From Candidatus Iainarchaeum sp. (lineage in GTDB: Archaea; Iainarchaeota; Iainarchaeia; Iainarchaeales; VGJJ01), in contig JACQJG010000001.1 in assembly GCA_016198125.1 (NCBI GenBank), positions 1 to 51,666 of the forward strand: a stretch of 51,666 bases of DNA. Direction: 5' to 3'. This document shows, piece after piece, positions 16,563 to 47,386 of this stretch (positions are counted from its first letter, which is position 1; each line of letters begins with the position of its first letter). The notes under the pieces were generated by a model. That model ran no database searches. It was given only the letters and a program-made list of their open reading frames with translations, and was not told the DNA's origin. The position numbers were made by a program, and so were the translations under genes.

Positions 16563-16894
16563 CTGAATTTTTAATCGGGTTTGCACTCTTGACAGGCTTG
16601 CTTGCACTCTCACCTGTTTCAGAACCCCTGGCACTGGAAAAAACGCTCGTGCAGGCGCGACTGAATGATGCATTAAAAGTGTGGGCCTTTCAGCCCCCTC
16701 CAACGCCTGAAGAAGCCTGGGAAGACCTTGAAAAAATGTTTCCCGCTTATTCCAAAACCCTGAAATGGGGCGAAGAAACATTTGGAAACCCCAATCCAAA
16801 AAGCGAAGGAGTGGCAAGCGAAGGAATACTGTACACGCCCAACCCTATACAGGTAAAGATCATGGTCTACCTTCACGCTCCAGACCCTGTTTAA
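16535..16894 (+). CDS. Pilin-like protein 4
   Basis: The 119-residue protein starts MHARGFYYLTEFLIGFALLTGLLAL: basic tip, G, an aromatic stretch and Glu 11 in the first helix, similar to class III or type IV pilins. The soluble part holds a short helix (EEAWEDLEKMF) and beta strands. It begins inside the previous gene (28 bases of overlap), so expression is coupled. It converges with the minus-strand pilin pair; only about 3 bp may separate the gene ends (16894 and 16891 overlap). Confidence 0.65.
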   Translation: MHARGFYYLTEFLIGFALLTGLLALSPVSEPLALEKTLVQARLNDALKVWAFQPPPTPEEAWEDLEKMFPAYSKTLKWGEETFGNPNPKSEGVASEGILYTPNPIQVKIMVYLHAPDPV

Positions 16895-17316
16895 GGCTGC
16901 AACGTGCCTATAAGGTTGGGCGGTTCATGGGCCATGGAAAACGCAAACGCGCCTTTCACCGTTCCTTCCAACTCATCCAGCCCAGGCACCTGAACTTGAA
17001 TCTTTTTAATTAACATTGAATGGGCATCGTAAACTGAGACTGAAAGAGTGTGCGCATTCACTGAAACATGCCACGTGTTTAATGCCAGGCCTTTGATTAA
17101 AACAGTAGAACCTGAACCAAGGACCTGCAGTGTTTGGGCTTCCCCTTGCACGCGCTGCGCAAACGAGTACGCATACTTTACGTCCAATGCTTCCACGCCC
17201 TTTGCGTGCACAAACAAGGCCAAACCAACAAAAGCCCCTAAAATGCCCAGCATAATGCCTGCAACCAGCAGGTATTCAAGAGAAACCTGTGCACGTACAG
17301 CCAAACCTTTGGACAT
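16891..17316 (-). CDS. Class III signal peptide pilin-like protein
   Basis: The 141 residues start MSKGLAVRAQVSLEYLLVAGIMLGILGAF. RA|QVSLEY is the archaeal prepilin peptidase site (basic, G/A, Q, x3, E). The head domain is beta-rich and ends with GLDELEGTVKGAFAFS, as in the archaeal proteins that carry an N-terminal pilin spine and a small sandwich. Its ATG follows the stop of the smaller pilin directly, so the two form one operon. It would be cut and inserted in a pilus assembled by the motor at 40-45 kb, as no other assembly genes are present here. Confidence 0.8.
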   Translation of the reverse strand: MSKGLAVRAQVSLEYLLVAGIMLGILGAFVGLALFVHAKGVEALDVKYAYSFAQRVQGEAQTLQVLGSGSTVLIKGLALNTWHVSVNAHTLSVSVYDAHSMLIKKIQVQVPGLDELEGTVKGAFAFSMAHEPPNLIGTLQP

Positions 17317-17484
17317 TCAAATATCCTCAATTTGCTTGAAAATATCCTCGGTCTTCTTTTCAATGACCTTGGAACCCTTCTCAGTGGTGGACTGCAATTG
17401 GGATACAAGAAGCAGGACGATGGCCACTACCGCTGCAAGCAGGACAATCAACTCCACTGAAATCTGGGCGCGCTCATCCAACAT
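17317..17484 (-). CDS. Small class III signal peptide pilin
   Basis: The 55-residue protein MLDERAQISVELIVLLAAVVAIVLLL has the RA|QISVE processing site followed by a hydrophobic spine and a short charged tail (KGSKVIEKKTEDIFKQIEDI). The longer ORF in the track (to 17574) is not used: a box A-like CATTTAATGG (minus strand) lies near 17512, so the message should start near 17486, just before the ATG at 17484. It is the first gene of the two-gene operon. Small pilins of this type usually form the bulk or base of archaeal type IV filaments. Confidence 0.75.
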   Translation of the reverse strand: MLDERAQISVELIVLLAAVVAIVLLLVSQLQSTTEKGSKVIEKKTEDIFKQIEDI

Positions 17485-29156: not shown

Positions 29157-32042
29157 ATGACCGAATCCCATGAACGCCTGGAATTGCCCTGGGTTGAAAA
29201 ATACCGCCCAAAAACATTGAACGAAATGCTGGGACAGGAACCCATCGTGCAACGCCTACAAAGCTACGCAAAAACCCGCACCCTGCCCAACATGCTGTTT
29301 GCAGGAAGCGCAGGCATTGGAAAAACCAGCGCGGCCATTGCCCTCGCAAGAGAATTGTTCGGAGAAGGATACGAACGGAATTTTTTGGAATTGAATGCGT
29401 CAAATGACCGGGGCATTGACGTTGTACGAAACACCATCAAGGAATTCGCGCGCACGCTTGCATTCAACGCAGACTACAAAATCATTTTTCTCGACGAAGC
29501 AGACGCGCTAACAACCGATGCACAACAGGCACTGCGCAGGACCATGGAATTGTATACCAAGACCACTAGATTTATTTTGAGTTGCGTAACCCCGGATACC
29601 AAAATAATGCTGCCAGAAGAAACTGAAATAACCATTGGGGATTACTTCACGGACTACGAGTCCGGGCAACAGAAAAGGGTGCTAAATGTAAATGAGAAAA
29701 ACGGGACAACCAAGAACGACCTCGTTCTATGTGCCATTAAACAAAATCCAAAAACCACCGGAAAAAAAGCATATGAAATTACCACCAACACCGGAAGGAA
29801 ATTGAAGTTAACGCACGACCACCCGCTCCTAACAGAATCCGGGTGGAAAGAAGCAGGCGGAATATCCATGGGGGAAAGAATTGTCATCTTTCCAACTCTT
29901 GAAACCACGGAATGGCCCATTGACCCAAGACCGCTTTTTGATGTCAATGAATTCAAGCAATACCTCACCCAATATGAAATTGAAAACGGCTACCATCCCA
30001 TTGAACGTGGCAAAAAGTTCATAGAACTCGCCACCCAGGAAAAAATGAAAATAGCCGAAAGAGTCAAGGAACTCCATCAATTCATCCTTTCTGGAAACGG
30101 CTTAACTATCCGTGAGTCAGAACTACTCAAAAAAATACACCCAATAACCCCCATTTCCAGAAAAGAACTTCAAAATCAAATGGGGCTTTCCAGAATACGA
30201 ACGGGCCAGCTTCTCCACTCGCTTGAAAAGAAAGGCTTTGCAGAGCGGACAAGAAAAGGGAAAACCCACCTTTTCATTTCAACACATAAAAACGGTAAAC
30301 AGTTGAGAAACATAATGGACATCAAACGCCTCATTAACCATGAATTTGGAATAACCATCTCATGGGAAGAAATAAAAAAAATCCCGACCACGAAAATAAC
30401 CCATAGCGGAAGATACGCCCACACCTTAATAGAACTTGAAAGAAAAGGCCTCTTGTCTCTTCAATGCGATTCAGAAAAAACATTTCCCCTAACACGAATT
30501 CTGGGATTCATCTATGGGGATGGGCACATTATCCACAGCCGCCAACGCATCATTTTCACCGGAAATCCCAAAGCATTGGAAGAAGTAAGGAAAGATTTGA
30601 CCGGAATAGGGTTTACCGCCAGCCCCCTTCACTCGAAGAAAGTCTCCAGCACCCTGGGCGGAAGGGCATTTGAGGGCACAACCCATTGGATACACGTGGA
30701 CTCACGCCCCCTTGCCAACCTGCTGTGTTTTTTGGGCGCGACCGTGGGCGACAAAATCATAACCCCCTACGCCATTCCGGCAATTATAAAGAATGGAAAC
30801 AAATTGATGAAGAGGGAATTCCTACGGGCATTATACGGGTGTGAAGGGTACAGCCCCAAAATAAAAAAGAATAATTTTGAAGCCATTACATTGCGCATGC
30901 ACAAAGATTTTACATTGCGTAAAAACATGCTGGCCTTCTTTGAGGATTTAAGGCAACTCCTGAATGAATTTGAAGTTGAATCCTATATCACGATTAGCAA
31001 ACTCAATTACGTGCGAAAAGATGGAAAAATTCCGGAATGCTATTCTCTTATTCTAAAATCCAACAACCAGAACCTGTTCAAATTCCTATCCCGAATAGGA
31101 TATGCATTTGAACAAGAGAAAGTGAACAAAGCACGGTTGGGGGCAGAATACCTGCGACACAAACAAGAGCACCTTCAAACCCAAAAAAACAAAGTCCCCA
31201 TCATCCTTGAGGCATTATCTGCTGGTAAAAAAACAAAAACCCAAATAGCAAGAGAAGTGAATTGCAGCCCTGATTTCATCCGTAACCAGTTGAGAAACAC
31301 AGAAGTTCACGTGCCACGCGACTTTCCCCCCTTTGAAAAGTGGAAATTGAAGTACCATTACAAAGAAGGCCTCGTGTACAATGAGGTGGTCTCATTAAAG
31401 GAAATCGATGCGGACTCTGTCATAGACCTCACTTGCCTTGACGACCATAATTTCATTGCCAATGGATTCGTTTCGCATAACTGCAATTATTCCAGCAAAC
31501 TCATTGAACCCATTCAAAGCCGGTGTGTAGTGTTTCGCTTCAAACCATTGAGCGGAACGTACATACAAAAACGCGTGCAGGAAATCGCCAACGCGGAAGG
31601 ATTGGAAGTTACAAGCGGCGCATTGAACGCCATTGAATACGTAAGCGAAGGGGACTTGCGCAAGGCCATTAACGTCCTGCAGGCAAGCGGCACCCTGGAC
31701 AAAAAAATAGACGAAAAAACCGTGTACACGGTAAGCAGCCGTGCCCAGCCCAAGGAAATAAAAGAACTCATTCAACTTGCACTCGCACAAAAGTTTTTAG
31801 AAGCACGCACCAAAATCGACGCACTGCTGTATGAATACGGAATGAGCGGAGAGGATATTATCCTGCAATTGTACAGGGAAATTGTCAATGCACCGGAAAA
31901 CGAGATTAACAGCAAAACCAAAATCGACCTCATTGAACGCGTGGGAGAAGCCAATTTCCGCATTGTGGAAGGAGCCAACGAACGCATTCAATTGGAAGCA
32001 TTGGTGGCGCAAATCATGAAACATGCCCATGAAAAGGCTTGA
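29157..32042 (+). CDS. rfcS: Replication factor C small subunit, interrupted by an intein
   Basis: The 961-residue reading frame is a 328-residue RfcS with a 633-residue in-frame insert. Extein signs: [16 protein letters not shown], Walker A region [10 protein letters not shown] (unusual; family normally GPPGTGKT), [16 protein letters not shown], Walker [24 protein letters not shown], and after the insert [20 protein letters not shown] and [11 protein letters not shown]. Joining FILS to CNYSSK restores a perfect RFC sensor/SRC region. The subunit forms most of the clamp-loader ring with RfcL. The intein must splice out for a functional loader. It converges with the adhesin gene. Confidence 0.96.
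29583..31481 (+). mobile_element. Intein with DOD homing endonuclease and winged-helix insert in rfcS
   Basis: The intein covers codons 143-775 (633 residues). It starts with Cys ([10 protein letters not shown], block A) and ends with VSHN before Cys+1, the standard splice junction. Block B is [13 protein letters not shown]; block F/G is [19 protein letters not shown]. The endonuclease has both LAGLIDADG-type motifs: LGFIYGDG and LRALYGCEG, with acidic residues kept, so it could be active. Between block B and the first motif is an added region with a winged-helix-like segment ([30 protein letters not shown]); a second HTH-like part ([20 protein letters not shown]) follows the endonuclease. 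The N-terminal half is larger than usual for DOD inteins. Confidence 0.95.
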
Positions 32043-32063: not shown

Positions 32064-34301
32064 TTAGCACGCAGGACTCTTTCCCGTAAAGGAAGTCAAA
32101 TTGCACCCTGCAGAAGGCGTGCTCGTAATGTAAATCTCATCAATCTTAAGCTGATTATTACAAAAAGCCACTCCAAATTGATCAGAAAACATCAACGTAA
32201 TTGTTGGATTCCCGCCAGCCCAGGAAACAGAGCCCGCGGACCTCCACACAAAGGCAGAGGCAGGAGAAGTAAAGCCAACAATGGTGCTTGAAGAAGGATT
32301 CAAACTTGAACTTACCTTCACATACCGCGTGCCTAGCGTTCCGGAAGTATTCGCGCCCCGCACCCACACGTAAAAAGGAGTTGTGCTGGGGGAGGAAGGC
32401 GCCTTCAGTGTAATGGGGCTATAATTAACGGTCACGTTTGTTTCCTGACCGGCAGGAATAGGATTGGTGCAATTTGCTGAATTTGTTGTAATAACGTTCT
32501 GCGTTTCAGGTGTTATTGTTCCAACGGTCGCACTCTGAGACAGAATACTGGTTCCCGCGGATGCAAAAGTTTCAGCCTCGGTTGAATACGTTTCCTTTGA
32601 AGCAGGCGTGCTTGCGGCAGAGTAAGACTCTGTGCAATTCGCTGTGCCTGCAACAACCGTTGCATTGTCCACTTTCTCGCACGCCTGTACAGCGGTGTAA
32701 TACGAGGCGCTTGGAACAAGCCCAGTCTGATAATCCAATACCACATTCAATCCACTCGTGCCTCCTGCCCCTGTTCCGCTCACGGCCTTGCCTGCTGAAA
32801 CAAGTCCAGCCACTTGGGCGGGGGTGGTAATTTGAACGGAATCATACGCTACCTGGTAGTCCACGTTTCCTGCATACGTTCCACCCACGTACACATCCAA
32901 CGGATGATTCCATGTTACAGAAAGCTGGGCGCCATTGGAAGCCCCTGTGGCAGGAGCAAATCCAGTAATGGCATTGGGCGCATCCACGTCATCAGGATAA
33001 GGGGCTGAAGCAGAAGTAATGACCTCGCTTGAACCCGGGTTGGCGGATTGCTCGGCAGTCATTATAAAATAAACGGGATTGGATGCTGAGAATCCTGCAA
33101 GAGATTTTAAGAGTGTAGCTGAAATGATTCCTGTTTGAGTGCCCCCCCCTTGGGTAATATCAAAAAGGGGTTTCCCGTCTTGGGGGCTTGCGAGCGGGGG
33201 CGTGTGGTTCATGTACGTGCCGAAGGCAACCAGCCCGCTTTCACCCGCAACAATACCTTGGTTGATTGGAAGATAGGAGGCATAAATTCCGGAAGGGTTT
33301 TGAAGGGATGCAAAAGGGGTATTCACGCTGTTGGGAAACGTTGAACCCGTCCATGAAAAGTTGAACGTTGCAATCCCTGCAGAACCTGAAGAATAGGCCC
33401 CTGTGAAATTGGTGATTCCTCCCCCACCCCCGCTTGCAATGGTTACACACTGTGAAGCGCTTGCTGGCGGGTCCACGGTGGTTGAAACATTGGACGCAAA
33501 GTCCACTGCCTTAACGGCAAAACAGTATTTACTGCCTTGCGTGAGGCCTGGAAGTGAAAGTGAAAGACCATTTGATATGTAGGTGGTTTGGACGGAATTA
33601 TACGTGAGATCCGTAATCTCTGTCACGTCCTGCTTGATTTCATACTGCTTTATCCCAGAACCCCCGACGTTGTCAGAAGCCGCGCTCCAAGACAAATCGG
33701 CCTGCCCGGGAGTCGTGGAAAACACGCTAAGGTCCGTAACATTGCTTGGGGGCGTGGTGTCAGGAACAGCACTTGAACACTGAGTGGTGTTAAAGGCCAA
33801 ACAATTGGAATAGCAAGCCAACGTGCCGCTTGTGAAATCACCAGGAATGGTCGTACAATCATTTCCACCCAAACCTGTTCCATCGCACACTTCCACTGGA
33901 GGGTTAATTACATTATCTCCGCAATAGTCGGCTCCCGGACCAGTGCAATCGGAAATGTCAATCGTGCAAGTGCCCGTACAACTCAAGTTCTCAGGTCCAG
34001 AATAACCAAAAGAAGCACAATTGTAAGAGCCAAAATATGCGCCGTCACACTGCTCCCCTGGATCTGGCGTGCCATTGCCGCAGCTTGGACCAGGCCCGCC
34101 GCCCCCAAAACCAATTTGATGGGCCAGCGTGTTCTGGTACTGGGTAATATTGTTGTTGATGATTTGGTTTGTACTGCTCGTGCTTGTTATAATGACCAGC
34201 ATGACAAGGGTGGCAACCAGCACGGCACCGCCAATCAACAACAAGTACTCCAACGCGCCCTGCCCCTTGGAATGAAAAGCAAAAGACTGCGTGCCGCGCA
34301 T
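32064..34301 (-). CDS. Large pilin-adhesin: class III signal peptide, Cys-rich repeats, Fn3 and CBM-like domains
   Basis: The 745-residue protein begins with SKGQGALEYLLLIGGAVLVA, a prepilin site (KG|QGALE), and a pilin spine. Residues 75-180 hold three EQCDG/EVCDG-type cysteine repeats (CGNGTPDPGEQCDG...; CGDNVINPPVEVCDG). A fibronectin type III domain (about 185-290; PPSNVTDLSV...KYCFAVKAVD) follows, then a beta domain, a second Fn3-like segment, and a C-terminal CBM-like domain (FYVWVRGANTSG ... LKIDEIYIT). The first 50 residues nearly match the small pilin at 44942. It is likely a filament-borne or tip adhesin. Box A: TTTAAATATA, about 35 nt upstream on the minus strand. Confidence 0.88.
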   Translation of the reverse strand: MRGTQSFAFHSKGQGALEYLLLIGGAVLVATLVMLVIITSTSSTNQIINNNITQYQNTLAHQIGFGGGGPGPSCGNGTPDPGEQCDGAYFGSYNCASFGYSGPENLSCTGTCTIDISDCTGPGADYCGDNVINPPVEVCDGTGLGGNDCTTIPGDFTSGTLACYSNCLAFNTTQCSSAVPDTTPPSNVTDLSVFSTTPGQADLSWSAASDNVGGSGIKQYEIKQDVTEITDLTYNSVQTTYISNGLSLSLPGLTQGSKYCFAVKAVDFASNVSTTVDPPASASQCVTIASGGGGGITNFTGAYSSGSAGIATFNFSWTGSTFPNSVNTPFASLQNPSGIYASYLPINQGIVAGESGLVAFGTYMNHTPPLASPQDGKPLFDITQGGGTQTGIISATLLKSLAGFSASNPVYFIMTAEQSANPGSSEVITSASAPYPDDVDAPNAITGFAPATGASNGAQLSVTWNHPLDVYVGGTYAGNVDYQVAYDSVQITTPAQVAGLVSAGKAVSGTGAGGTSGLNVVLDYQTGLVPSASYYTAVQACEKVDNATVVAGTANCTESYSAASTPASKETYSTEAETFASAGTSILSQSATVGTITPETQNVITTNSANCTNPIPAGQETNVTVNYSPITLKAPSSPSTTPFYVWVRGANTSGTLGTRYVKVSSSLNPSSSTIVGFTSPASAFVWRSAGSVSWAGGNPTITLMFSDQFGVAFCNNQLKIDEIYITSTPSAGCNLTSFTGKSPAC

Positions 34302-35810: not shown

Positions 35811-36761
35811 TCAAGGCGCTGGGGTCAGCTCGATTTTATCCACGCGCACCGTCTTTGCATTGCAGGGAATCACCAGGGAAAGCGTTTGAGGGGGCAAACC
35901 CAAGGTCAGGTAATCAGTGGATTCATACCAGTTCAATGCCCCCACATTCGTGCCGTACGGGAAAATAACAGGCACGCGAATGCCTTCGCTTGCAAGAAAC
36001 ACAGTCAACTCGCCAAATGGAGCAGTGTTCACGCCCCGCATGCGCACGCGAAACGCGTTCGAAGAAGGCAATTCCACGTTCACTGCATACTCAACGAAAA
36101 ACTCTTCACCACTTTCACACGCCTCCCCATCCCACTGCACCACGCCCTGGCCGGCATAGGAAGAAGTCTTCAAACCACTTCCAAGAACGCCTTCCTCGGC
36201 CTCTAATACGAGTTCTGAAAGCAGTGGCGGCAAAGGATTTGAGTCAATGGGCTGACTGGGCAGTTGAGCGCACACCGTATTTGAATAATAGGCGCCAACC
36301 TCGTTGAAGGCTTTCACGGCAAAACAGTACTCCTGTCCCGGTGTGCCCTTGAAAACAAAAGGACTGGAAGCGCGTGCATTCACTTCCCAAACCCCATCCG
36401 ATTCAAATTCCAATGCATCAATGACCTGGTCTGAAACAAGGAGTGAGGAAGCGTGCACGCCTTTTACCAGGTACTCCGGGCTGGGGGAACCCAATGCGTT
36501 TGACCAAGACCATTCCACTGTGTCAGGGGAAACACGTGAGACCTGAAGTGAAAACATTCCGGGAGGCACAGGACCTTCATACACCGGGTTACTGCCCCCG
36601 GGCACTGGAACCTGAACGGGAGGAACGCCCAGCAAAAACAACCCGACTATGATGAGAACAAGCAGCGCCCCCAAGGTCAAAAACGGCCACTCGGCGCCTT
36701 TTTGAATGTGCGAAGAAGAGGCATTTTCGCGCACGCGTGCACTGCGGTTCTTTATGGGCAT
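35811..36761 (-). CDS. Membrane-anchored Fn3 / CBM-like surface protein
   Basis: The 316 residues start with a short basic tail, an N-terminal membrane anchor (LTLGALLVLIIVGLFLLGV), a Pro-rich linker, an Fn3 domain (FSLQVSRVSPDTVEWSWS ... EYCFAVKAFNEVG), and a CBM-like domain (FRVRMRGVNTAPFGELTV ... TVRVDKIELTP). The last two match the order and motifs of the adhesin at 32-34 kb. It lacks the class III site, so it is likely a cell-surface protein and not part of a filament. The ORF track start at 36779 is replaced by the ATG at 36761, which is about 25 nt from GTTAAATAG (minus strand). Confidence 0.8.
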   Translation of the reverse strand: MPIKNRSARVRENASSSHIQKGAEWPFLTLGALLVLIIVGLFLLGVPPVQVPVPGGSNPVYEGPVPPGMFSLQVSRVSPDTVEWSWSNALGSPSPEYLVKGVHASSLLVSDQVIDALEFESDGVWEVNARASSPFVFKGTPGQEYCFAVKAFNEVGAYYSNTVCAQLPSQPIDSNPLPPLLSELVLEAEEGVLGSGLKTSSYAGQGVVQWDGEACESGEEFFVEYAVNVELPSSNAFRVRMRGVNTAPFGELTVFLASEGIRVPVIFPYGTNVGALNWYESTDYLTLGLPPQTLSLVIPCNAKTVRVDKIELTPAP

Positions 36762-36813
36762 GCAAAAATGCACCAGCAAACACTATTTAACTTTCACGCT
36801 AAACCTGCAGGGT

Positions 36814-40792: not shown

Positions 40793-42628
40793 ATGGCATC
40801 CGAAGATTACCTGAAAACCCTTATTTCGCAGGTCAAGCGAAAAAAAGAGGAAGAGCTTGAGCCTGCGCCACCAAAAACCGCGGAAAAAGAAATCCCCCCA
40901 GGCGTTCAAGACCCCTTAAAAAAAGGGCCCGAAGACTTTTCGAGCATCATTAAACGGTTAAAGGAAATTCAAGTGGAAGTACCGGAAGCCCCTGAAATCC
41001 ACCCAATGTCCGATGAAACGCCCCAAAAAAGCCAGCCCATCCAAAGCCTGTCAGCAGAAAGAGAATCAAATCCTGTTCCAACCGTGTCAAGCCCTGCACC
41101 TGCACAATCCCCTCCTGGCGATGCAACGCCCTCCCAAAAACCTGCAGAGGAAAGCACGGGCACCATAGAAAAAGAAATGGAAACAAAACAAAAAGTAAAA
41201 CTTGAAGAGTATGGAGAAGTTGAAATCTACAAAGTCAGGGGAGAATCCTTGAATTATTACCATGTCCCCGTTGTACGCCCCACCGCATCTGAAAAAAACA
41301 TCATCAACACGCTCAAAGAAGCCGCGACAAGGCTTATCACGATTGCGCCTTACAAAATACGCGACCCCATTCAAAGAAGAAACGTGTACTATCAGCGAAT
41401 CATGGAAATACTCCGCGCGAGCCCGGAACTAAGAATCTCGCAAAACAAGTTCACGTTTTATGCAAATGCGGTAGTGAGCGAAATGGTGGGCTATGGAATC
41501 ATTGACCCGCTCATCCAAGACGACAAATTGGAAGAAATCATGATCATCCAGCCCAAACACCCTGTGTATGTATTCCACCGCGAATATGGAATGATGCTCA
41601 CCAACATTGAATTTTACTCCGACAACGAAATTCAAGACGTGGTAAACCGCATTGCACGCGAAGTGGGCAGAAGAGTAGACATCAGCTCGCCTTTACTGGA
41701 TGCACGCCTGCCAGACGGAAGCCGTGTGAATGCCACCATCCCCCCGGCATCCGTTGACGGCAGCACGCTCACCATCCGAAAATTTAGGGGTGATCCATAT
41801 AGCATCGTGGACCTGATACGCATGGGAACCTTGAACGTTGAAGCGGCTGCATTTCTATGGCTGTGCGTGGATGGATTGCAGACAAGACCTGCAAACATTC
41901 TCATTGCAGGAGGAACCAGTTCAGGAAAGACCACCCTGCTCAATGTACTGTGCTCCTTTATCCCCGACAGCGAACGCGTAATATCCATTGAAGACACTGC
42001 AGAACTCAGCCTGCCGTTAAAACACTGGATCCGATTGGAAGGCAGGCCCCCAGGATTGGAAGGAAGAGGAGAATTGTCATTGGACATTTTAACAAAAAAT
42101 TCACTGCGAATGAGGCCGGACAGAATCATTGTAGGAGAAATACGACATGATGAGGCATTCACTCTGTTCACGGCCATGAATACTGGGCATGAAGGATCGA
42201 CTGGAACTGTGCACGCGAACTCCGCGCAGGAAACCATTGTACGATTAACCAACCCGCCCATGAATGTCCCGGAAATCATGCTGTCAGGATTGGACTTCAT
42301 CATCGTTGAAAACCTTTTTCACACAAAGAAAAAAGGAACATTCAGGCGCATCACTGAAATCGCAGAAGTGCGGGGCGTGCTAGAAGGAAAAGCAAAAGCC
42401 CAAACCATATTTGAACGCGACCCCGTAAAAGACGAGCTCATTAAACTGGATTTGCCGATTGAATACATCTACGAACTTCAACGCTTAACCGGAAAAACAA
42501 AAACGGAAATGGAGTTGGAATTTAAACAGCGGGAAAAAGCCCTCAAAGAAGTCATTTCAAAAGGCATCCGAGACATGCGCACGGTGTCCGAATCGCTTAA
42601 GCGGACTGCGCTTGAGGGGGCAGCCTAA
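40793..42628 (+). CDS. Type IV pilus assembly ATPase (archaeal GspE/PilB family)
   Basis: The 611-residue ATPase powers pilin insertion. An N-terminal charged, Pro-rich extension of about 120 residues precedes the ATPase N-domain and core. Walker A is GGTSSGKTTLL, the Asp box holds VISIEDTAEL, Walker B is RPDRIIVGEIRHDEA and the His box HEGSTGTVHANS. Compared with FlaI it has a longer N-terminus, and no archaellum accessory genes (FlaX/F/G/H) are near, so adhesive pilus function is favoured. It overlaps the next gene by one base (TAATG). Confidence 0.95.
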   Translation: MASEDYLKTLISQVKRKKEEELEPAPPKTAEKEIPPGVQDPLKKGPEDFSSIIKRLKEIQVEVPEAPEIHPMSDETPQKSQPIQSLSAERESNPVPTVSSPAPAQSPPGDATPSQKPAEESTGTIEKEMETKQKVKLEEYGEVEIYKVRGESLNYYHVPVVRPTASEKNIINTLKEAATRLITIAPYKIRDPIQRRNVYYQRIMEILRASPELRISQNKFTFYANAVVSEMVGYGIIDPLIQDDKLEEIMIIQPKHPVYVFHREYGMMLTNIEFYSDNEIQDVVNRIAREVGRRVDISSPLLDARLPDGSRVNATIPPASVDGSTLTIRKFRGDPYSIVDLIRMGTLNVEAAAFLWLCVDGLQTRPANILIAGGTSSGKTTLLNVLCSFIPDSERVISIEDTAELSLPLKHWIRLEGRPPGLEGRGELSLDILTKNSLRMRPDRIIVGEIRHDEAFTLFTAMNTGHEGSTGTVHANSAQETIVRLTNPPMNVPEIMLSGLDFIIVENLFHTKKKGTFRRITEIAEVRGVLEGKAKAQTIFERDPVKDELIKLDLPIEYIYELQRLTGKTKTEMELEFKQREKALKEVISKGIRDMRTVSESLKRTALEGAA

Positions 42629-43806
42629 TGGCAGACCTTTTGAAAAACTTGCGCGCGCGCATTGAAGAAAAAAAGGAAAAAGAAAAAACGGAGTCTGCAC
42701 GCGCAGCAAGCGAAGAAGAAGCAAACGTGAACCCTTCCCAGGTCGAAGACATTGTGCGGAGAATGAAAGAAAAATACCAGCACGAAGGCCTGCAGGAACA
42801 GGCTGTGGAAGGAAAACTAGGAGAGTTAAGAGACATCATCACGGGAACCGAACGAAAAACCATTGAACTGCAAACAGTGGAAGAACTTCAAGAATTCCAC
42901 TCTCCCTTGGTGCGCAGGCTTGGAGGATTGTACCTGAAACTCAAAAAGCCCATGGACTGGTTGAGCGCGCGCGTGGCCCAATTCCCCCAAATGAAAATGC
43001 TCAACTATTACCTGTACTCGGCAGACATGCCCTATTCTTCCAGGCAATGGGTTGCATTAACCACCATATCCGCGTTCATCGTATTCATTTTAAGCGTATT
43101 ACTTGGAACGGTTGTGTTCAACCTATTGCCCCCCTTAAAGCCCCAGTACAAGTTCCTTTCATTCCTTGTACCCCTGGCCATTGGAATCGTGTTGTTTTTC
43201 ATAACAGTCCTCATGGGATTCCTCATCCCCCAAAGCAACGCACAAAAACGCGGGGAAAAAATAAGCGCTGAACTCCCCTTTGCATTAAGGCACATGGCCA
43301 CGGAATTGCGCGCAGGAATCGGGTTGTACAGGACCATTGAAACCATTGCCAAAGCCGATTATGGAGTGCTCTCCGAAGAATTCGCGAAAACCATCCGCGA
43401 AATAGAAGAAGGAACTGACACCAAGGACGCATTACGCCACTTCGCGGCGCGCAGTCAAAGCAAAGCCCTTCAAACATCCCTGCGCCACGTCATCCGCGCA
43501 CTCAAAACAGGAGGAAACCTGTCTGAAATCATGAGCACCATTGCAAGCGAAGTGTCCTTTGACCTAAGAACAAAAATACGCGATTTCTCTGAAAAAATGA
43601 ACTTTTTCGGAGTCATATTCATTTTCATTGGAATTGTAATGCCTGTATTCGTCGGCATTCTTTCAGCGATTGTAAACGCGCCCACAAACCTTCCCCTCAC
43701 CCTGCCACTTACGCCCATATTCACGTTCATGTTTTACGTGGCCATCATGCCGTTCATCCTCGCATTCCTCATATTTTACTTATACATCATACAACCCAAG
43801 GTGTAA
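42628..43806 (+). CDS. Type IV pilus inner-membrane platform protein 1 (TadC/GspF family)
   Basis: The 392-residue protein has a charged N-terminal region (about 90 residues, with a motif similar to the next protein absent), then GspF-type membrane helices and the cytosolic T2SF domain (ELPFALRHMATELRAGIGLYRTIETIAKADYGVLSEEFAKTIREIEEGTD). The LPxALxxMAxxLRAG-type pattern is diagnostic. It forms the pilus platform with the ATPase. It starts at an ATG overlapping the ATPase stop and is followed at 3 bp by a second member. Confidence 0.93.
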   Translation: MADLLKNLRARIEEKKEKEKTESARAASEEEANVNPSQVEDIVRRMKEKYQHEGLQEQAVEGKLGELRDIITGTERKTIELQTVEELQEFHSPLVRRLGGLYLKLKKPMDWLSARVAQFPQMKMLNYYLYSADMPYSSRQWVALTTISAFIVFILSVLLGTVVFNLLPPLKPQYKFLSFLVPLAIGIVLFFITVLMGFLIPQSNAQKRGEKISAELPFALRHMATELRAGIGLYRTIETIAKADYGVLSEEFAKTIREIEEGTDTKDALRHFAARSQSKALQTSLRHVIRALKTGGNLSEIMSTIASEVSFDLRTKIRDFSEKMNFFGVIFIFIGIVMPVFVGILSAIVNAPTNLPLTLPLTPIFTFMFYVAIMPFILAFLIFYLYIIQPKV

Positions 43807-43809
43807 TCC

Positions 43810-44733
43810 ATGGCGCAAAAAAAACTCATTGAAGTGTACAAAAAGTTCCTGAATCAACTGGGCATCCGCATTCCACTCTCCCTGTGGATTTTCATTGCAT
43901 TTGCATTTTCCGCGGCACTTGGAGGAGTTGCCTTTGTTTTCATGTCCACGGTATTCAAAAGCACCAACCTCTTGTTCCCAGTACTGGCCTTTATCATTTC
44001 CATTGATGTAGTGCTTGGAATTCCTTACTGGAAAGGCCAACAGCGCATTACGCAAGTGGAAGAAGCCCTGCCTGATGGTTTAAAGCAGATGGCGGACACG
44101 CTCAAAGCAGGAAGCACGTATGAATACGCGTTGCGTGAAATTTCAGAATCCGAGTACGGGCCGTTGAGCGATGAAATGAAAAACGTTGTACGAAAACTTG
44201 AAGAAGGAGAAAACTTTGAAAACTCGCTCAAATCCCTTGCGGAAAGCGTGGAATCCAGAACCGTACAGCGCACCATTACTATTATCATTGACTCGGTAAA
44301 AGCAGGGGCCGGGCTTGCGGACATCTTGGACGAAATCGCGGCTGACTTGTATGACTCCAACCGCATCCGCGCCGAACGCAAAACCCGCACGCTCCTCCAG
44401 GGACTTTTCCTTGTGGCCGCAGGAGGAATGGTAGCCCCCTTCATTTTTGGCATTGTGTCTGTCATCGCAGCATTCCTCATCAAAACCGCGGTGTCTGCAG
44501 GCGTAGTAGACGCGGTTACCAAGGAAGGCGCGTACAAGGCCGCGGATTTCATCACCGTAGGAATGCAAAGCTACATTTTTGCTGAAATATTCGCGACAAG
44601 CATCATGCTGGCGGTAATGCGGGACGGGAAAATAAACAAAAGTATTATATACCTGCCTATTTTATTATTCGTCGCTTACGCCATATTCTTTGGCGCAAGA
44701 ATATTCGTTTCAAAATTGGTTGGAGGCGTGTAA
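43810..44733 (+). CDS. Type IV pilus inner-membrane platform protein 2 (TadC/GspF family)
   Basis: The 307 residues repeat the T2SF domain (ALPDGLKQMADTLKAGSTYEYALREISESEYGPLSDEMKNVVRKLEEGENF) with flanking helices. The cytosolic segment is a recognisable paralogue of platform protein 1, and both are needed in several archaeal pilus systems that use two TadC-like proteins. C-terminal helices (IYLPILLFVAYAIFFGARIFV) end the protein. Its stop overlaps the start of a small pilin by one base. Confidence 0.93.
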   Translation: MAQKKLIEVYKKFLNQLGIRIPLSLWIFIAFAFSAALGGVAFVFMSTVFKSTNLLFPVLAFIISIDVVLGIPYWKGQQRITQVEEALPDGLKQMADTLKAGSTYEYALREISESEYGPLSDEMKNVVRKLEEGENFENSLKSLAESVESRTVQRTITIIIDSVKAGAGLADILDEIAADLYDSNRIRAERKTRTLLQGLFLVAAGGMVAPFIFGIVSVIAAFLIKTAVSAGVVDAVTKEGAYKAADFITVGMQSYIFAEIFATSIMLAVMRDGKINKSIIYLPILLFVAYAIFFGARIFVSKLVGGV

Positions 44734-44909
44734 TGTCAAGCGTTTGGTGCGATGAAAAAGGCCAAGCCGGAAGCGAAACCCTGCTCATCTTAGCAGGAGT
44801 AGTACTGGTTGCCACCCTCGTGGCATTGTACTTAAAATCCGCGCTTGCAGGAACGCAGCCCATCGTGCAAAACCAAACAAACCAAACCATCCAACAAATC
44901 AACACTTAA
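44733..44909 (+). CDS. Class III small pilin-like protein (58 residues)
   Basis: Too short for the ORF track. MSSVWCDEKGQAGSETLLILAGVVLVATLVALYL has a KG|QAGSE prepilin site and a long spine, ending in a polar tail rich in Gln/Asn/Thr (NQTNQTIQQINT). The ATG overlaps the platform protein stop (TAATG), and the TAA is at 44907-44909. It has a Cys before the cut site that would be lost on processing. Confidence 0.85.
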   Translation: MSSVWCDEKGQAGSETLLILAGVVLVATLVALYLKSALAGTQPIVQNQTNQTIQQINT

Positions 44910-44941: not shown

Positions 44942-45118
44942 ATGGACCAAAAAGGACAAGGAGCGTTGGAATACCTGTTGTTGATCGGAGGCGCGGTGCT
45001 CATCGCAACCATTGTGTTGTTGATCATCATTTCAAGCACGACCACGACAAATGGTATCATCAACAACAACATTACCCAATTCAATACCGAAATTCAAAAT
45101 GCCGTCAGCCACGCCTAA
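44942..45118 (+). CDS. Class III small pilin, putative major pilin (58 residues)
   Basis: Too short for the ORF track. MDQKGQGALEYLLLIGGAVLIATIVLLIII has a KG|QGALE site, and the tail (STTTTNGIINNNITQFNTEIQNAVSHA) is almost pure spine with no real head domain. The best SD in the operon precedes it, so it is likely the most abundant pilin. Its first 50 residues match those of the 745-residue adhesin in nearly every position, down to IINNNITQ. Confidence 0.88.
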   Translation: MDQKGQGALEYLLLIGGAVLIATIVLLIIISSTTTTNGIINNNITQFNTEIQNAVSHA

Positions 45119-45152: not shown

Positions 45153-45326
45153 ATGAATTCCAAGGCACAGGTTTCAGTGGAATACCTTGTAACCGTTGCG
45201 TTTGGAATCGTGCTTGCCACCTTGGCGGCACTCATCGCCCTCCAAGTGGTGCAAATCGCCACCGTGGCAGAAGTGCAGGTACAACAAGTCCGGCAGGAAA
45301 CAATCGGCTCCCTCATGGGGGGGTAG
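45153..45326 (+). CDS. Class III small pilin-like protein (57 residues)
   Basis: MNSKAQVSVEYLVTVAFGIVLATLAALIAL holds the KA|QVSVE site and a pilin spine, followed by a short helix rich in Val/Gln (TVAEVQVQQVRQETIG). The ATG at 45153 is used in place of the GTG at 45135 because GGAAGGA lies upstream and the tip length then matches its neighbours. The prepilin peptidase starts one base after its stop. Confidence 0.83.
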   Translation: MNSKAQVSVEYLVTVAFGIVLATLAALIALQVVQIATVAEVQVQQVRQETIGSLMGG

Positions 45327-45327
45327 C

Positions 45328-46473
45328 TTGTTTCCCTTTTTTTATTTTCTTACCCCCTTACTAGCGTTAGCCATTGGCACGTACACGGATTTCAAAAAAC
45401 GCATTATCCCCAACACGCTCACGTATGGAATGATTGTAACAGGACTTGGAATGCATGCCCTGGAAAGCATGCTTGCCAATGACTGGAACATTTTTGGAAT
45501 TACATTGACTGTGACTGCTGCCACGTTTATGGGCGCGTATGTTTTGTACAAAATAGGGGTGTGGGCAGGAGGCGATGTAAAACTATTCACCGGCATTGCC
45601 GCGTTCAACCCCTTCAACCCTGCCTTTTTTCCCCTGCAATTCAATTACACGCTTGCATTAAACAACGAAAACCTTTTTGGAGTCTTCCCGCTTCCTATCT
45701 ACCCTTTCACCCTCTTCCTGTTCAGCGTGTTCTCCACCCTGCCCTACACTGCATTACTGGGATTAAACGCCCTCCGATCCAATCAACGCGCGCGCACTGC
45801 ATTCATGGAAACAATAAAGAAAGCCGCATACCACGGCATTGCCTGGGGGCTTGTAATAACAGGATTCACTGTGCTCCTGCAAAAACTTGGAATGGATTCC
45901 CTTCTACTTATCCCCCTTCTTTTAATCACAGGCCTGCTGACCTCCCAACAAAAGATTTTCATAGGATTGGCAGTGGTGCTGGGAGTTGCAGGTTTTGCCA
46001 TTAATGGAACAGCGGCAGTAGGAACCCTTGCACTGCTCGTTATTGGAATATTTGCACTTGAATGCGCGTTGGGCGCGTTTGGATTGGCAAGAAAATTCGT
46101 ACTGCGAAAAACAATTCCAGTAAAAGAACTCAAAGAAGGAGACATCTTAGTGGACACGTGGATTGAACGCCAAGGTTCTTTTATAGCATGGAAGGGCATA
46201 GACTTGGAAAAGGTTTTAAAGCACGTGAAGGCAAATACTCTCGCCCAGGCCTTGGAAGAACTGCGGCCCCCCAAAGGAAATGTGACAGCCGACCCGCACA
46301 ATGCAGGCGGACTCTCAGAAGAACAGGTGAAAAAATTGCAGCACGCCGCACAAAATGAAAAAATGCCCCGCGCAGTAGAAGTAAAACTGACTGCACCCTT
46401 TGCCCCGGCAGTGCTCATTGCCTACGTGATTACAAACACCATTGGAGACGCGTTATGGATTGCACTGTACTGA
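45328..46473 (+). CDS. Archaeal prepilin peptidase (A24 family)
   Basis: The 381-residue membrane aspartyl protease processes class III signal peptides. The catalytic Asp pair is in TYTDFKKRIIPN and GGDVKLFTG. The protein continues with more helices and the cytosolic domain found in many archaeal A24 peptidases (IPVKELKEGDILVDTWIERQG...). The ORF track begins at 45196, inside the pilin gene in another frame. The likely start is TTG 45328 right after the pilin stop, with GGGGGGT just before as ribosome site. It overlaps the next pilin by 19 bases. Confidence 0.9.
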   Translation: MFPFFYFLTPLLALAIGTYTDFKKRIIPNTLTYGMIVTGLGMHALESMLANDWNIFGITLTVTAATFMGAYVLYKIGVWAGGDVKLFTGIAAFNPFNPAFFPLQFNYTLALNNENLFGVFPLPIYPFTLFLFSVFSTLPYTALLGLNALRSNQRARTAFMETIKKAAYHGIAWGLVITGFTVLLQKLGMDSLLLIPLLLITGLLTSQQKIFIGLAVVLGVAGFAINGTAAVGTLALLVIGIFALECALGAFGLARKFVLRKTIPVKELKEGDILVDTWIERQGSFIAWKGIDLEKVLKHVKANTLAQALEELRPPKGNVTADPHNAGGLSEEQVKKLQHAAQNEKMPRAVEVKLTAPFAPAVLIAYVITNTIGDALWIALY

Positions 46474-46961
46474 ACGCCAAAGGCCAAATAAGCCTGGAAT
46501 TCATTTTAATCGTAGTCATCATACTCATTTACGTGCAAACCGTCATACTGCCGGTTTCAAGCACGGCATTAAACGCGGCAGACGATGTTACACGGTTGTC
46601 CCAGGCACGCAAAGCCGCACAAGACCTCACCGGAACAATTAATTACATAGGGGCAGTTCCTGGAACCAGCGCGCAAACCATTACAATATTCATCCCAAAA
46701 AACACTGCTATTCATTGTTATGCCAACCCCCTTCAAAAAATCGGGTTTGAAGTGAATTTAAACACGCCTGCATTCGCGTGCCCGGACGCCCTGGGAACCC
46801 CTGGAACCCACTGCGACAAGAATTTTACAATTCCCTCAAATACGTACCTGGAATGCGCGGTGCCCAGCATTTACGCAGGCGGAAACGGCTTTGCCCAGCA
46901 CTTAAAAATAGAAAAAAAATATGACCCGCAACCCAAAGTAACTGTGGAGCCTGTGATATGA
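46455..46961 (+). CDS. Class III pilin with Cys-containing head
   Basis: The 168 residues start MDCTVLNAKGQISLEFILIVVIILIYV, with a KG|QISLE site and spine, then a head domain with four Cys (IHCYANP, FACPDAL, THCDKNF, LECAVPS) and beta strands (TITIFIPKNT). Two disulphides are plausible. It overlaps both neighbours (prepilin peptidase by 19 bases, next pilin by 4), which shows tight coupling. Confidence 0.85.
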   Translation: MDCTVLNAKGQISLEFILIVVIILIYVQTVILPVSSTALNAADDVTRLSQARKAAQDLTGTINYIGAVPGTSAQTITIFIPKNTAIHCYANPLQKIGFEVNLNTPAFACPDALGTPGTHCDKNFTIPSNTYLECAVPSIYAGGNGFAQHLKIEKKYDPQPKVTVEPVI

Positions 46962-47386
46962 AACGCCCCGCTGAACGCGCTCAAACAAGTTTTGAGGCCA
47001 TGCTTGTAGCTGCATTTATCATTGTAGTATCAACGATCATCATGACACGCTTTGTAGAACCCATTCAAACCACCACGGTAATTGCAGAAGCAAAAGCCCA
47101 GGCAGTAAACCAACTCGCAAAACTAAACCAAGCCTATTACATCCAAGACATGGAATACAAGTACTACCCCAACAATGCAAGCGAAACCTTCAACGATGTC
47201 TTCGCAATAAACGTGCGCACCAATCCAAGTGATTTCACGGCCAGCGCAAACAAGCCAACGCCGCCAAACCCTTACTCAGAAATAGGGGCATGGATTGCGC
47301 AAATTGAACCAGAACTCAAAAGCAAAACAAACTACGGAACAGTAAACGTGTTCTTCAATTACCCCAACAACCTGCCCAACGATTAA
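46958..47386 (+). CDS. Class III pilin-like protein, last gene of the pilus operon
   Basis: The 142-residue protein starts MKRPAERAQTSFEAMLVAAFIIVVSTIIM. RA|QTSFE matches the prepilin site, and the head of about 100 residues has no Cys and is rich in Asn/Pro/Tyr. Its ATG overlaps the previous stop by 4 bases (ATGA). After it the operon ends; the next gene has its own box A. Confidence 0.82.
   Translation: MKRPAERAQTSFEAMLVAAFIIVVSTIIMTRFVEPIQTTTVIAEAKAQAVNQLAKLNQAYYIQDMEYKYYPNNASETFNDVFAINVRTNPSDFTASANKPTPPNPYSEIGAWIAQIEPELKSKTNYGTVNVFFNYPNNLPND

Follow-up and report, generated by a model that had tools for sequence, protein, structure and literature searches.

A 745-residue archaeal surface protein that is probably a modular pilin of an Epd/Tad-type pilus

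The protein studied here is a 745-residue putative adhesin, encoded in a 51,666-nucleotide stretch of DNA (the window), which is contig C16 in a genome of Candidatus Iainarchaeum sp. that is 846 kb in size and 71% complete. We conclude that the protein probably serves as a modular pilin in an archaeal Epd/Tad-type pilus, co-assembled with a 58-residue pilin that is encoded in an operon of the same window. Its 13-residue leader ends at a KG|Q site, leaving Q as the mature N-terminus, and would most likely be cut there by the EppA-like peptidase of the operon. The ATPase and the two T2SSF proteins would then build the helical head, which spans 50 residues and is a diverged copy of the 58-residue pilin, into the same filament, and a Gly linker would carry the Cys-rich repeats, the fibronectin type III (Fn3) domain and the C-terminal domain outward as sparse binding decorations. 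An earlier note on this DNA had proposed that adhesin and pilin enter the same filament; the class III head, the Q+1/E+5 residues, the fusion point and the lineage-matched heads described below support this well, if indirectly. At the level of sequence, the lineage matching appears to be the best support for co-assembly.

The adhesin, the operon pilin and their genes

Both genes were found in the window at the positions given in Table 1, and the roughly 10 kb that the earlier note placed between them measured 10.6 kb. The adhesin gene appears to have its own TATA-like element, TTTAAATATAA. In the operon, the ATPase gene is followed consecutively by two PF00482 genes, as in the Epd/Tad-type (clade 1 archaeal T4P) pilus, and the candidate major pilin (58 aa, QGALE) fits the short +1 Gln/+5 Glu type. 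The ATPase has its nearest matches, considered as such and not as a phylogeny, in Diapherotrites and then in methanogens including Methanocaldococcus. The peptidase has both the A24 and the archaeal C-terminal domain and scores 58 bits against the EppA equivalog NF053826, whose cut-off is 450; its true start probably lies downstream of the ORF start. A PDB sequence search with the operon pilin returned no match. The genome also encodes several further secretion ATPases and a second A24 peptidase, and the adhesin could thus be handled by a different machine; it is only the head that points to the pilin operon.

Table 1. Features of the window discussed in the text.
Feature	Positions	Strand	Basis
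745-aa adhesin, probable modular pilin	32064..34301	-	ORF and translation; PF04021 and PF00041 above cut-off
Adhesin C-terminal domain	32112..32594	-	no Pfam match; conserved with G003 orthologue
Fibronectin type III domain	33501..33743	-	PF00041, 25.6 bits; missing from G003 orthologue (alignment)
Two Cys-rich repeats (CGNG..PGEQCD..., CGDN..VEVCD...)	33777..34082	-	sequence; TIGR02232 below cut-off; repeat present in many relatives
FGGGGPGP linker	34086..34109	-	Gly run from mature residue 53, the mature pilin length; kept in G003 orthologue
Pilin head, mature residues 1-50, Q+1, E+5	34113..34262	-	33/50 identity with operon pilin; one-helix prediction
TATA-box-like TTTAAATATAA	34333..34343	-	read from sequence; 32 bases ahead of adhesin ATG
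Pilus assembly ATPase (T2SSE)	40793..42628	+	PF00437, E 1e-45
Membrane platform protein 1 (T2SSF)	42628..43806	+	PF00482
Membrane platform protein 2 (T2SSF)	43810..44733	+	PF00482
58-aa pilin-like protein, first of pilin cluster	44733..44909	+	class III motif
58-aa operon pilin (53 residues when mature), candidate major subunit	44942..45118	+	PF04021, 29.9 bits
57-aa pilin-like protein	45153..45326	+	adjoins major pilin across the order (conserved)
EppA-like prepilin peptidase	45196..46473	+	PF01478 and PF06819 above cut-off; NF053826 EppA, 58 bits
168-aa class III minor pilin candidate	46455..46961	+	PF04021, 21.8 bits, slightly below cut-off
142-aa minor pilin candidate	46958..47386	+	class III-like motif, pattern only

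Three side observations are recorded alongside. The frames of secretion ATPases at G000:C12:24709-26733, G015:C2:556097 and G016:C1:1100164 are 1019-1054 aa long, compared with 611 in the operon; in the C12 frame the PF00437 match falls in two parts, which suggests an insertion such as an intein. An intein also apparently lies inside the reading frame of a 961-aa replication factor C small subunit (window 29157-32042 (+); ...NGFVSHNC). A tandem pair of class III proteins of 55 and 141 aa (window 16891-17484 (-)), which also occurs as a conserved pair in further genomes of the family, is unrelated to the adhesin head.

Alignment of the two N-termini bore out the claim that adhesin and pilin have them in common: the stretch KGQGALEYLLLIGGAVL matches without a single difference, and identity over the first 50 mature residues is 33/50. 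The identical residues fall as 23/30 and then 10/20, so the earlier wording, likeness at nearly every position over 50 residues, was too strong. Beyond the membrane helix, at mature positions 26-50, the identity is 12/25, a value that shuffling of the adhesin segment reached in only 3 of 100,000 trials; the post-helix likeness is therefore not due to chance. Both proteins carry the class III signature KG|Q...E5, and both exceed the cut-off of Pfam Class_IIIsignal (PF04021; 27.5 bits for the adhesin and 29.9 for the pilin, against 23.7). For a comparison within the genome, 10 other class III-like heads were found by pattern. The next-best matches to the adhesin were the head of a large adhesin on contig C18 (24/50) and the pilin at 44733 (17/50), the others reaching 13/50 at most; among the short class III heads other than the operon pilin, none exceeded 17/50. 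The C18 protein (L009:7644-10106 (+); G000:C18) is 820 aa long and adhesin-like too, built in the same way as the 745-residue protein, with a pilin-type head and an EGGGS linker; Pfam detected no cargo domain in it.

Between the adhesin head and the operon pilin, dN is 0.25 and dS 1.40 (50 codons, and hence noisy), and identical codons are used at 16 of the 33 shared residues. These values speak against recent copying and suggest that selection acts on the protein. A recent gene conversion event involving head and pilin was also considered and judged unlikely.

The Gly run of the adhesin begins at mature residue 53, which is the end of the 53-residue mature pilin; across the adhesin's family of four genomes the pilins end at residue 48-53, and the Gly run starts at 49-55 in seven of nine large headed proteins. 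The extra domains thus start where an ordinary subunit stops. The head itself is predicted as one helix at residues 15-56 (single-sequence AlphaFold, low confidence) and has the +1 Gln and +5 Glu that are reported features of EppA substrates (PMC4371748). The hallmarks of a modular type IV pilin found in the adhesin are accordingly a prepilin leader, a pilin module with hydrophobic helix and Glu5, and a non-pilus module (Fn3) joined to it via the FGGGGPGP linker.

Downstream of the linker, the Fn3 domain read earlier from the sequence was recovered, its PF00041 score of 25.6 bits barely exceeding the cut-off of 25. The Cys repeat is visible by eye in two copies (residues ~74-119 and ~127-175) and is also seen in relatives, but its TIGR02232 score of 12.6 is below the cut-off of 20.8. 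The carbohydrate-binding module claimed in the earlier note was not found: the C-terminal 176 residues gave no Pfam match up to E=5, carbohydrate-binding modules included, and single-sequence AlphaFold gave no confident fold for this domain (mean pLDDT 42; 36 for the whole adhesin, modelled with no alignment). A PDB sequence search with the adhesin yielded weak Fn3 matches only, and a scan of genome contigs with the adhesin returned no confirmed relative. A 322-aa membrane-anchored protein (window 35811-36779 (-)), which has a weak Fn3 match and no class III head, faintly resembles the adhesin in its C-terminal part and is possibly a cell-anchored counterpart.

One clear orthologue of the adhesin was identified, in G003; it is 602 aa long, 38% identical and lacks Fn3. 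Its head is identical to its own pilin at 17/50 positions, ungapped, and it retains QG..EYLLLIGGAVLV, Glu5, the class III core and an FGGGGP linker; the I..N.NI..Y pattern is kept after a one-residue insertion, the head having otherwise diverged. The earlier note had named free variation at the N-terminus of orthologues as evidence against its proposal. Such variation is seen in part: core, Glu5 and linker are kept in G003, but residues 20-50 have drifted.

Lineage matching and cargo across Diapherotrites

Class III heads were gathered from some 40 genomes belonging to the same order (Diapherotrites/Iainarchaeota), and 51 large proteins with major-pilin-type heads were scored against the small pilins of 18 families, using a permutation that keeps the score table intact. 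The small pilin of the protein's own genome was the best match for 32 of the 51 large heads, where 2.8 are expected by chance (permutation p=5e-5), and it was also best for 27/51 on positions 21-50 alone and for 22/51 on positions 31-50. For 102 other class III heads of the same genomes, which resemble the major pilins less from the outset and so are an imperfectly matched control, the own pilin was best in 7 (chance 5.7, p=0.21). When only operon-verified pilins were used, the own pilin came first in 21/33 (chance 2.4; p=5e-5), or in 17/33 on positions 21-50 alone, and averaging of this set over 8 families gave z=1.73 (p=5e-5). A tree of 107 heads (50 columns, few forks resolved) follows family with 33 changes, against 72 or more in shuffles; for the big and small size classes the same tree requires 27 changes (shuffles: mean 36, minimum 28). 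The heads therefore track family far more than size class.

The matching operates at the level of the family, since the adhesin head is equally close to the pilin of the sister genome G001 (33/50) and to its own (33/50); matching at the level of the genome was rejected on this ground. Within the adhesin's family, the pilin of the own family is not the top match for four of the nine large proteins. Two old paralogues passed down vertically would not produce lineage-matched heads. Such heads would result from repeated local fusion, gene conversion or co-evolution, and each of these makes most sense if head and pilin have to fit together in a single filament.

A scan of 45 headed proteins for cargo domains identified LamG/concanavalin-like domains in 9, CBM_4_9 in 2 and beta-helices in 2, with single cases of chitobiase C-terminal repeats (in a protein of 1,734 aa), carboxypeptidase-regulatory/Ig-like domains and a BD-FAE esterase. 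What unites the cargo is carbohydrate or surface binding, which makes "adhesin" a fair guess for the 745-residue protein but does not name its ligand. The esterase is found in a 401-aa protein of G003 (L051:2017-3222 (-)) that has a pilin head, a Cys-rich stretch, the BD-FAE domain (E 5e-22) and a GRSAG nucleophile-type motif, and is a candidate pilin-mounted enzyme. The 1734-aa protein (G006 L073:3655-8859 (-)) has about 11 chitobiase C-terminal-type repeats, and its head has GGQSRDS in common with the small pilin candidate of its own genome.

Position in the filament and alternative explanations

The earlier note suggested that the adhesin sits at the tip of the filament. Incorporation at the tip only, as an initiating or capping subunit, is a sub-case of the modular-pilin reading that we consider unlikely. 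It would suit a bulky cargo of 680 residues, and the bimodular pilin PilB was modelled solely at the tip because of clashes (PMC8179133); however, a helix-only pilin with a Gly linker relaxes the packing constraint that held for PilB, and the same study allows a position in the body of the filament given a flexible linker. Pelicic's review (PMC10191384) states that a subunit without Glu5 caps tip complexes and that minor pilins of the dispensable kind are distributed along the filament, yet Glu5 is kept in 54/54 large heads. With Glu5 so conserved, and with a Gly linker that allows lateral display, the tip is not favoured over the shaft. We lean towards adhesins that are scattered along the filament, or that can take either position, and tip-only placement is not supported.

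Two further explanations would keep the adhesin out of the pilus or deny the likeness a present role. The head could be a class III secretion signal and membrane anchor only, the adhesin staying in the membrane or in some other surface assembly. Class III signals do occur on archaeal surface proteins outside pili, such as the subunits of the bindosome, a proposed surface assembly of sugar-binding proteins (PMC4371748), and several heads in the family fail to track the local pilin. Against this stand the likeness that extends beyond the membrane segment and the own-lineage matching that persists on positions 21-50 and 31-50; an anchor requires neither a post-membrane match nor a linker placed where the pilin ends, and we regard this explanation as clearly unlikely. 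Alternatively, the likeness might be the remnant of an event in which the pilin gene was duplicated and fused to a surface protein, and might play no role in co-assembly today. Heads that cluster with the pilins of their own lineage are indeed expected from repeated local fusion, but a dS of about 1.4 with a dN of 0.25 (50 codons) points to an old event under constraint at the protein level, and the pattern recurs in many families with the +5 Glu kept throughout. A remnant is in our judgement very improbable.

Relation to known systems and implications

Modular (bimodular) type IV pilins such as Streptococcus sanguinis PilB and PilC (PMC8179133) consist, like the adhesin, of an N-terminal pilin module, a linker and a non-pilus functional module, and the bacterial proteins carry lectin-like and other binding cargo in many architectures, as does the Diapherotrites set. 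By analogy, the adhesin may work like a bacterial modular pilin within an Epd/Tad-like system. Unlike the bacterial proteins, its pilin module is of the archaeal class III, EppA type and is apparently a helix-only, ~50-residue Epd/Tad-type subunit; the Gly linker is placed at the pilin's end, and the heads track the major pilin of their own lineage. The Methanococcus clade 1/Epd pili (PMC4858521, PMC6668835) also have an ATPase, two T2SSF/TadC proteins and short +1 Gln/+5 Glu pilins, together with an EppA peptidase to which the operon's EppA-like peptidase is a putative counterpart. In the models for those pili, however, the proposed adhesins are DUF2341 proteins of the locus and the major pilins are usually stand-alone genes, whereas here the small pilins lie within the operon and the large proteins bear a matched pilin head. 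PilC/PilY1 tip adhesins are likewise large modular adhesins associated with type IV filaments, but PilY1 itself is no pilin, and Pfam matched neither the PilY1 beta-propeller nor DUF2341 in the adhesin or in its C-terminal part. The survey of modular pilins was based on the bacterial motif IPR012902, and its text makes no mention of archaea (PMC8179133); our literature search, which covered open-licence papers, yielded none that describes modular pilins in archaea. The new elements are an archaeal version that is apparently helix-only, a fusion point where the pilin ends, and heads matched to their lineage.

More tentatively, and with rather more doubt than belief, we suggest that the Diapherotrites Epd/Tad-type pilus could be a general display rack, on which dozens of unrelated binding and enzymatic proteins, an esterase among them, would be mounted along the shaft by heads matched to the local major pilin, in a mixture specific to each lineage. 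In uncultured archaea it is usually difficult to place large surface proteins in any structure, and a matched pilin head would provide a sequence-only rule for which pilus bears which adhesin. The prediction is that helix-only Diapherotrites pili bear lectin-like, Ig-like and enzymatic cargo as decorations. If this is true, these proteins would be direct candidates for how these small archaea bind other cells or polysaccharides, and the concept of modular pilins, which the papers searched describe for bacteria, would be extended to archaea.
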